Assembly (NCBI GenBank): GCA_017533165.1
Contig: JAFXIM010000181.1
Span: forward strand, 1-9,577
DNA length: 9,577 bases
Direction of reading: 5' to 3'
Source of the DNA: Eggerthellaceae bacterium
GTDB taxonomy: Bacteria; Actinomycetota; Coriobacteriia; Coriobacteriales; Eggerthellaceae
Positions 7,975 through 9,577 of the stretch are shown one piece after another. How positions within the stretch are numbered: the first letter of the stretch is position 1; each line of letters starts with the position of its first letter. A model generated the notes under the pieces. The model was given only the letters and a program-made list of their open reading frames with translations, made no database searches and was not told the DNA's origin. The position numbers and the translations under genes are program-made.

Positions 7975-8859
7975 TTAAGCCTCACCCTTATCTGAGATCG
8001 ATCCGATCTCAGATTTGTTTTCAGCATCAATTGCAGTGATTGCGCCATCTTCAGCCGGGAGGACTATCTCACCCTGCTCGAGACGCCACGCTTCAAGATT
8101 GGAAAGGTACTTCATTTGGATGAGCTCGAGGATAATCGAGAAGACCATGGCGAAGTACACCATGAGCTTCTCCATATGCATATCAAGGACCTCGATGCCA
8201 GAATGAATGGCCATGGAATCCAGAACGAGCAGAACGCCAATTGCAACGATAAAGACGAGAGCCAAGATCTTCATCTGCGGGTGGCTGTTAATGAAGTTGG
8301 AAATGGGATCGATGAACACCATCATGATGATCACAGCCACCATAACGGCGATGATCATAATGATAAGATGCTCCGCTAAGCCAACCGCCGTGATGACAGA
8401 GTCAATGGAAAACACGAGGTCCATCACCATAATGGTGGCAATGGCCTGAGGGAGGCCAAGCTGGCGGGAGGCCTTGTGCTCGGCACTCGTCTCAGACTTG
8501 ATCTCGGAAAGGGACAAAACCTCTCGAACCTCAGTAATACCCTTGTAAATTAGGTATGCGCCGCCAAGAAGCAACACCAAGTCGCGCATGGAGAAACCAT
8601 GCTCGAAGAAGCCCAGATCGATGTGGAACAAAGGCGTTGTCATGTGGACCAAGTAAGATGCGAAGCACAAGAAGACAATACGCATAACGAGCGCACCCGC
8701 AAGACCAAGTTTACGGCCCAGGTGTTGCTTTTCTTTGGGAAGTCGATCGGTTGTAATCGAAATGAACACCAGATTATCAACACCCAGGACGATCTCGAGG
8801 AAGATCAGGGTCAGAAGGCTGATCCACGCTTCCGGCGTTGCAAATATTGACAAATCCAC
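7975..8859 (-). CDS. TerC/YkoY-family integral membrane protein, probable Mn2+ exporter (GTG start)
   Basis: A 294-residue TerC-family protein with seven or so hydrophobic segments (about 10-31, 53-74, 91-108, 137-157, 164-184, 196-214, 232-249). Two halves carry the family's acidic intramembrane motifs: LEIVLGVDNLVF (21-32; Glu22, Asp28, Asn29) and MDLVFSIDSVITAVG (146-160; Asp147, Asp153). TerC relatives in Bacillus (YkoY/MeeY, YceF/MeeF) export manganese, which agrees with the candidate Mn2+ riboswitch ahead of this gene. The polar, acidic C-terminal tail (about 262-294) is probably cytoplasmic. The frame is open to an ATG at 8949, but the GTG at 8857-8859 is chosen because AAGGAG (8865-8870) lies five bases upstream and the extra 30 residues would be encoded across the terminator loop. 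Manganese specificity is inferred, not shown. Confidence 0.9.
   Translation of the reverse strand: MDLSIFATPEAWISLLTLIFLEIVLGVDNLVFISITTDRLPKEKQHLGRKLGLAGALVMRIVFLCFASYLVHMTTPLFHIDLGFFEHGFSMRDLVLLLGGAYLIYKGITEVREVLSLSEIKSETSAEHKASRQLGLPQAIATIMVMDLVFSIDSVITAVGLAEHLIIMIIAVMVAVIIMMVFIDPISNFINSHPQMKILALVFIVAIGVLLVLDSMAIHSGIEVLDMHMEKLMVYFAMVFSIILELIQMKYLSNLEAWRLEQGEIVLPAEDGAITAIDAENKSEIGSISDKGEA
7990..8020 (+). terminator. Likely terminator of the lipid kinase gene, inside the 3' end of terC
   Basis: A perfect 11-bp inverted repeat (7990-8000 and 8004-8014) closes a three-base ATC loop and is followed on the plus strand by TTGTTTT. It begins 51 bases after the kinase stop. The stem is only about half GC, so efficiency is uncertain. 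It overlaps the last codons of terC on the opposite strand, encoding part of its polar tail. Confidence 0.55.
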
Positions 8860-8904
8860 TATTGCTCCTTCTTGCACTATCTCGATTAAAGAGCTTAGCC
8901 TGCA

Positions 8905-8970
8905 TAAAAAAAGACTCATGGCGTAGCCCGATTGAAAGCACACGTTCAAAACAAGCTACGCCATGAGTCT
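8905..8970 (-). terminator. Intrinsic terminator in the terC leader (attenuator)
   Basis: Perfect 16-bp inverted repeat, arms 8912-8927 and 8955-8970, with a 27-base loop that itself can form a 5-bp stem (8932-8936 with 8945-8949). On the minus strand the stem runs directly into seven U residues (8906-8912, one shared with the stem). The plus strand has no T-tract after the stem, so the signal is directional towards terC. No minus-strand gene lies between it and the divergent gene at 9145, so it most likely terminates the terC leader itself. The U-tract ends about 35 bases before the terC Shine-Dalgarno. Confidence 0.8.
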
Positions 8971-9065
8971 CGCAATTTAAGGTACGCCAGACGAACCGTC
9001 AACATACTGTAGGCCGCCACGATGTTGAACGTACCGCATATATATGCCAGCTACTCCCCCATGGG
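8971..9065 (-). ncRNA. Candidate yybP-ykoY (Mn2+) riboswitch aptamer in the terC leader
   Basis: Read on the minus strand, the RNA starts near 9065 with CCCAUG, then GGGGGAGUAGC (9060-9050), which matches the most conserved segment of the yybP-ykoY family. A short hairpin follows (GCAUA/UAUGC), then a stem UCAACAU/AUGUUGA (about 9022-9028 with 8999-9005), then GUUGAC with a small GACG/CGUC hairpin and GGCGUACCUU (8987-8978), which resembles the family's closing GCAAGACCUU. CGTACC (9030-9035) and GGTACG (8981-8986) could also pair. Position just upstream of a terminator and a TerC-family gene is the classic setting of this manganese switch. The 3' segment differs from consensus (GU in place of AAG), and the fold was drawn by hand, so a covariance search should decide. 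Confidence 0.68.
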
Positions 9066-9073
9066 ACGAATGT

Positions 9074-9102
9074 ATGCTATCAAAGTAGCGCATGCGCGGC
9101 AA
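9074..9102 (-). promoter_or_regulatory. Probable sigma-70-type promoter of the terC leader transcript
   Basis: On the minus strand TTGCCG (complement of 9097-9102) and TAGCAT (complement of 9074-9079) are separated by exactly 17 bases, each matching consensus at four of six positions. Transcription would begin around 9066-9068, immediately before the CCCAUGGGGG start of the candidate riboswitch. The match is moderate; the placement is what makes it credible. Confidence 0.45.
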
Positions 9103-9144: not shown

Positions 9145-9577
9145 ATGCCATCACGAAACAACAACTTATCGGGCGAAGAACAGGCGGTGGTCTACCCCGA
9201 CGGAAGTGCTCTTCTCAGACCCCTTGACCCGCCACGCTCCCTTAAGGCAAAAATGCTCGTACCGGTCGTTGCGGCCTGCCTCATTGGCGGTGCTATCTTT
9301 TTGGGCTACGCTAACGCCGTAATTGGAGAGCCCCAGCGACAGCAGGAGGCTCTTGAGGCCAACATCACTCGCGACGTTGCCCTCGATCTTCCCGCAATTG
9401 CCCCTCTTCTTTCCATGGGTGATCAGGACATCATGAGCTCCCTGCAGTCTTCTGGCTACACCATGTACGAAAAGACGCCCTTAGGCAGCAACGAAAAGGG
9501 TGGTTTCGAAGTTATCAAGCTGCCGTCTGATGTAAGCCTCGAGCAGGCTGGGCTCATGTACCTTCAGGGTATCGACA
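9145..9577 (+). CDS. Unrecognised membrane-anchored protein, N-terminal part (runs off right edge)
   Basis: The open frame gives 144 residues with no stop before the window ends. I do not recognise the family. A polar N-terminus of about 35 residues (MPSRNNNLSGEEQ, then a VYPDGSALL stretch and a proline-rich PLDPPRS) precedes one clear hydrophobic helix (about 37-59, LVPVVAACLIGGAIFLGYA). With basic residues (Arg31, Lys34, Lys36) just before the helix, the N-terminus is probably cytoplasmic and the rest outside. The following part (60-144) is soluble, lacks cysteines and reads as a mixed helix/strand domain. There is no signal-peptidase or lipobox site. AGGAG (9134-9138) sits six bases before the ATG, and a good extended -10 lies upstream, so the gene is real. 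It is divergent from terC. Confidence 0.85.
   Translation, partial: MPSRNNNLSGEEQAVVYPDGSALLRPLDPPRSLKAKMLVPVVAACLIGGAIFLGYANAVIGEPQRQQEALEANITRDVALDLPAIAPLLSMGDQDIMSSLQSSGYTMYEKTPLGSNEKGGFEVIKLPSDVSLEQAGLMYLQGID

Follow-up and report, generated by a model that had tools for sequence, protein, structure and literature searches.

Introduction

The closest described systems to the RNA studied here are the Mn2+ aptamers of X. oryzae and L. lactis, the E. coli mntP leader and a yybP-ykoY member of Streptococcus. According to PMC6754395, the L3 residues of the X. oryzae aptamer are A45, A46, A48, U49, A50, C51 and U52, of which A48 contacts Mn2+, and the 3' half of L1 together with P1.1 reads GAGACCAGGGAU. 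In L. lactis, Mn2+ is described to stabilise P1.1 and to prevent the terminator (PMC11087558). The E. coli mntP leader, a member of RF00080, is presented in PMC11647493 as a translational riboswitch, whereas the leader described below has a terminator as its expression platform. The function of the TerC proteins that such RNAs may control is described in more than one way: for Bacillus TerC, PMC10550928 favours the supply of Mn2+ to exported enzymes over export, and the RefSeq name of the E. coli TerC-family protein Alx is Mn2+ exporter.

In this paper we analyse a stretch of 9577 bases from an Eggerthellaceae bacterium (the window), in which a sequence-only reading had proposed a Mn2+ (yybP-ykoY) riboswitch before terC. 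Our results make it highly probable that terC is preceded by a yybP-ykoY-type Mn2+ riboswitch, which turns the gene on by blocking termination.

Results

Gene and leader architecture

The terC product matches the Pfam family TerC (PF03741) with 155.2 bits, and its best NCBIfam match is the YkoY family with 96.7 bits, which is below the cut-off of 138.5. A divergent open frame at 9145-9576 on the plus strand runs off the window and has no Pfam family at E<=0.001. The features of the locus are listed here with their basis in brackets.

7975..8859, minus strand: terC coding region from GTG 8859 (start chosen by homologues; a longer frame runs from TTG 8949)
8865..8870, minus strand: RBS-like AAGGAG (by eye)
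8906..8912, minus strand: U-tract of seven (sequence)
8914..8968, minus strand: terminator hairpin, -32.5 kcal/mol, 17 outer pairs (folding)
8961..9064, minus strand: whole aptamer, P1.1 to P1.1 (28-row alignment, pair counts, model match)
9058..9064, minus strand: P1.1 switch helix, 5' strand CCAUGGG (96.4% of cells paired, 4/7 pairs doubly changed)
9052..9057, minus strand: L1 5' side GGAGUA, core of GGGGAGUAGC (GGGAGUAG in 108/108 members)
9049..9051, minus strand: P1.2 5' strand GCU, opposite 8974-8972 (outermost U-U unpaired in the window)
9036..9047, minus strand: P2 hairpin, 4 pairs in the window (pair counts over 28 rows)
9030..9035, minus strand: P3 5' strand GGUACG (5/6 pairs doubly changed)
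9019..9029, minus strand: L3 5' side UUCAACAUCGU ([UC]CA[AC]CA in 108/108)
8990..9018, minus strand: outer P3 hairpin, 9018-9015 paired with 8993-8990, interior variable (pair counts over 28 rows)
8981..8986, minus strand: P3 3' strand CGUACC (pair counts over 28 rows)
8975..8980, minus strand: linker UUAAAU, six bases, at the place of P4 in other members (alignment, E. coli mntP comparison)
8972..8974, minus strand: P1.2 3' strand UGC (pair counts over 28 rows)
8968..8971, minus strand: L1 3' side GAGA ([AG]C[AG]AGAC in 103/108 members)
8961..8967, minus strand: P1.1 3' strand CUCAUGG, common to the terminator (pair counts, terminator fold)
9074..9102, minus strand: promoter-like pair TTGCCG-17-TAGCAT (8/12 consensus matches; transcription start expected near 9067)

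The strings on which the sequence-only reading was based are all present on the minus strand in the order it gave, and the small hairpin it saw after the first string is P2 (9047-9036). The first of them, GGGGAGUAGC, occurs as a single copy in the 9577 bases, at 9059-9050; shuffled sequences hold 0.03 copies on average, and 5 of the 200 shuffles have at least one. Another, CUGGCGUACCUU, is made up of the L3 3' side and the P3 3' strand. That reading was wrong about the 3' part of the RNA. It had ended the aptamer at 8971, which cuts off most of the L1 3' half GAGA (8971-8968) and the P1.1 3' strand, as the aptamer extends to 8961. It had also described a 3' core departing from consensus, but the core is orthodox, with the 3' half GCGAGAC at 8973-8967, of which 8970-8967 are outside the region it considered. 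The core looked deviant because GCGAGAC and CUCAUGG (8967-8961) lie mostly and wholly, respectively, past the boundary at 8971.

Core residues and junction

Among 108 members including the window, GGGAGUAG and [UC]CA[AC]CA are each found in 108 and [AG]C[AG]AGAC in 103, although part of this core conservation reflects selection because the members were picked by a model. On the two sides of L1 we find GGGGAGUAG (5' side, 108/108) and GAGAC (3' side, 103/108), both of which are present in the window. The X. oryzae L3 residues given in PMC6754395 fit UCAACAUACU of E. coli mntP, and therefore the counterpart of A48 would be at window position 9023. A9023 is thus the putative Mn2+-contacting adenosine, and the motif that would carry this invariant residue, [UC]CA[AC]CA, is shared by all members. 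The described X. oryzae segment GAGACCAGGGAU corresponds to GAGACUCAUGG in the window leader.

In the E. coli mntP leader, GGGGAGUAGC, UCAACAU and GCGAGAC follow one another as they do in the window leader, P2 and P3 are likewise present, and E. coli mntP belongs to the regulated family that makes up half of our set. Unlike the window leader, E. coli mntP has a P4 hairpin (judged by eye). The L. lactis and X. oryzae aptamers, as described, likewise share the L1 and L3 residues and a P1.1 switch helix that is set against a terminator, but they form a four-way junction with P4. In the window, the P3 3' strand is separated from P1.2 by six unpaired bases. In 101/103 measured members the C of P1.2 lies at a distance of 14-15 from CUGG, and in the other two at 10. 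As P4 is lacking, the aptamer has a three-way junction. We do not hold P4, or a four-way junction, to be obligatory for the class. The three-way form is not new, because a review reports it for the S. pneumoniae mgtA yybP-ykoY aptamer (PMC9495176), which by its description belongs to another lineage and to another gene, that of a P-type ATPase.

Conserved structure

In the alignment of the window with 27 related leaders (28 rows) we see P1.1, P1.2, P2, P3 and the outer P3 hairpin. Pairing holds in 96.1% of the 698 cells and 16/25 pairs are doubly changed; slid controls reach 30.4-50.9% of cells. When no structure was given, RNAalifold predicted 26 pairs, including 24 of the 25 alignment pairs. 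A separate set of 50 mntP leaders (46 distinct), none of them in the training set, has 94.8% of cells paired and 19/25 pairs doubly changed against 31.3-49.3% in slid controls; this alignment leans towards the structure because it was fitted to the model. The covariation across homologous leaders that had been proposed as a check is thus present in the 28 leaders, and the terC set, the mntP set and RNAalifold together support the helices P1.1, P1.2, P2 and P3.

A further stem of the sequence-only reading, CAACAU/AUGUUG, was rejected as a conserved element. Over the 28 leaders, 53.0% of its cells are paired, near the shuffled mean of 51.0% (slid controls 18-38%), with one doubly changed pair. 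Energy folding of this one leader without the terminator prefers this stem, which would occupy L3 (MFE -31.6); the aptamer energy is -21.8 when the stem forms and -19.8 when the outer P3 hairpin forms instead. The stem may therefore compete in this one sequence.

Searches with Rfam and a lineage model

At gathering thresholds, the whole window has no match in Rfam. At a relaxed threshold, the RF00080 search aligned GGGGAGUAGC and UCAACAU and gave 9.4 bits (E 0.72-1.4), which is not significant; the gathering score of 45 bits is a database threshold and not a property of the RNA. The models bglG-cis-reg (E 0.017) and MIR6201 (E 0.004) rank above RF00080 and both span the terminator hairpin. We rejected these two together with AbsR11, SNORA56 and RAGATH-28, as all are far under their gathering scores.

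We built a covariance model, R1, from the 28 rows. It scores 98.0 bits at 8958-9069 of the window, which belongs to its training set. R1 matches 16/16 relatives' genomes and, at E<=0.1, 87/296 Coriobacteriia genomes, whereas RF00080 is over its cut-off in 0/20 loci, 0/16 relatives' genomes and 0/296 class genomes. Across the phylum RF00080 passes in 1/396 genomes, and as a control it passes in 2/14 control genomes. The class and phylum searches used stricter filters, by which weak matches are lost. Elsewhere in the phylum there are RF00080-like RNAs (L201-L218), many of which have a canonical appearance by eye and may likewise be under-annotated. In E. coli, R1 recovers mntP (E 2.4e-4 in 13 kb, 21.1 bits), with P3 misplaced, and misses alx, a member that has been studied. 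No match was obtained when plasmids were searched with the leader.

The expectation that standard models would score this RNA weakly is borne out by RF00080, in the window as in the class genomes, but the explanation offered, that the 3' core deviates, does not hold. More likely, the low scores stem from the lack of P4 together with a printed RF00080 consensus that contains neither the GAGAC strand nor P1.1.

Relatives and downstream genes

A TerC protein scan of genome contigs resulted in 50 loci, of which two are from Planctomycetota, two are titled 'bacterium' (L007, L013) and the rest are titled Eggerthellaceae or other Coriobacteriia. The best match is 85% identical and comes from an Eggerthellaceae MAG. 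L049 and L050 were left out because they contain the 3' part of the gene only. In 27 of the 48 loci with a gene start, GGGAGUAG is found within 280 bases upstream of terC. None of the remaining 21 matches R1, even at E<=10, and therefore terC does not always come with this RNA.

For the class as a whole we investigated the downstream gene at 107 places, which comprise 106 of the 107 class-search matches (G069:C19, E 0.096, was left out) and one place from the relatives' genomes. The partner was called by similarity to the TerC of the window or the MntP of L068. TerC follows at 52 places, at least 12 of which come from training-set loci, MntP at 50 and neither at 5. The RNA, which stands before terC in the window, is thus associated with Mn2+-related membrane proteins. 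The L068 protein is a putative manganese efflux pump by Pfam and does not pass the stricter MntP model of NCBIfam.

The five other places comprise three Castor/Pollux-type channels, one P-type ATPase and one place without a clear gene. Of the 8 Coriobacteriia loci that have a Castor/Pollux-type channel, 3 carry a copy of the RNA before it, and the L3 of these copies reads C-CA[AC]CAGCAAGG, not UCAACAU.

L225, 458-580, plus strand: copy before a Castor/Pollux-type channel gene (place L144)
L226, 2644-2744, minus strand: copy before a Castor/Pollux-type channel gene (place L185)
L227, 550-649, plus strand: copy before a Castor/Pollux-type channel gene (place L182)

Contig C55 of G275 has two copies on the same strand (L177 and L186), separated by about 3 kb, one before mntP and the other before the P-type cation ATPase gene. 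L183 has a full aptamer with no clear partner gene downstream, and is possibly a rearranged locus.

Terminator and switching

The sequence-only reading had placed the RNA between a promoter and a terminator. The terminator is there, downstream of the core, although a stock terminator scanner found none in the window. The upstream part of the claim is less firm: the promoter scanner does not list TTGCCG-17-TAGCAT, which is below its threshold with 8/12 matches. This pair ends at 9074, ten bases ahead of P1.1, and many of the 27 related leaders have a similar pair in the corresponding position, which weakly suggests that it may act as the promoter.

The 5' arm of the terminator takes up 7/7 bases of the P1.1 3' strand CUCAUGG in the window. 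As this strand is common to both, aptamer and terminator would be mutually exclusive, as in an ON switch. A strict test for such sharing was passed by 25/28 terC leaders against 29/140 shuffled tails, and by 37/50 mntP leaders against 46/250. A loose version was passed by 26/28 and 50/50 leaders, and we used the strict version alone because the loose one also passed many shuffled tails (63/140 and 107/250). The sharing fits the mechanism described for L. lactis. In two Slackia leaders (L014, L044) the aptamer precedes terC with no evident terminator, and control could be translational there. The leader including the terminator folds better than shuffles (z -4.83). At -66.1 kcal/mol, against -47.3 for the best fold that keeps P1.1, the terminator fold is favoured by about 19 kcal/mol in an energy model that leaves out tertiary docking and metal, and therefore switching would be decided during transcription.

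For the metal, the docking and the switching direction we draw on the studied relatives. Transcription would start just ahead of the aptamer. At low Mn2+, CUCAUGG would join the terminator and transcription would stop at the U-tract. At high Mn2+, L1 and L3 would dock around the ion and hold P1.1, so that CUCAUGG would be unavailable and RNA polymerase would continue into terC. The product would then move Mn2+ out of the cytoplasm, either for export or for supply to exported enzymes.

Discussion

Our analysis bears out the proposal of a Mn2+ (yybP-ykoY) riboswitch before terC. The core strings are ordered as in E. coli mntP, and the residues agree with the aptamers described for L. lactis and X. 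oryzae. Strong covariation is seen among the terC leaders as well as in the separate mntP set, and 50/107 places are before mntP. The sequence, the conserved structure, the shared strand and the gene association are shown by this analysis. The conserved core and the mntP association point to Mn2+ as the probable ligand.

The alternative that deserves most attention, while still unlikely, is that the same fold has another main ion, in which case the three-way form would sense Ca2+ to the same extent as Mn2+, or would respond to a different divalent ion. The affinity of the three-way Streptococcus mgtA member is reported to be higher for Ca2+ than for Mn2+, but the same review describes the activation of transcription in Streptococcus as more prominent with Mn2+ (PMC9495176). 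The single place before a P-type ATPase and the three before Castor/Pollux-type channels would also suit another ion; the 50 before mntP, a manganese efflux family according to Pfam, speak for Mn2+. A response of the leader to Ca2+ is possible.

It is very improbable that the leader is conserved but no metal switch, for instance a simple attenuator or an antiterminator bound by a protein, with an accidental likeness to yybP-ykoY. The RF00080 score, which is not significant, and the weak matches to a bglG-type antiterminator and other families could be read in this way, but the leader combines both L1 halves, L3, P1.1, P1.2, P2 and P3 in the way that E. coli mntP does, and the RNA precedes two Mn2+-tied families. 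Hardly any weight is left for a chance motif ahead of an ordinary terminator. It is true that the fold of the aptamer alone is not better than that of shuffled sequences (z 0.52), but the absence of a conserved RNA is refuted by the covariation in 28 + 50 sequences against shuffled and slid controls.

Beyond the yybP-ykoY-type Mn2+ switch at this locus, we tentatively raise the idea, more doubtful than probable, that the Coriobacteriia carry their own P4-less Mn2+ riboswitch subtype, present in 87/296 genomes and invisible to Rfam, whose three-way junction may shift ion preference or sensitivity and which has in places been recruited to a Castor/Pollux-type ion channel. Our literature searches, which covered a minority of the subscription papers, returned no paper on Coriobacteriia members of yybP-ykoY under the class name, one preprint under the genus name Eggerthella and, in full text, no report of a Castor/Pollux-type channel as a riboswitch partner.

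An RF00080 scan reports no such RNA in this gut-bacterial group (0/296), against 87/296 with the lineage model, and there seems to be room for improvement in the 3' part of the RF00080 model. The P4-less members are a natural collection for studying the role of P4. For the bacteria themselves, our results suggest that terC and mntP would answer to one signal.
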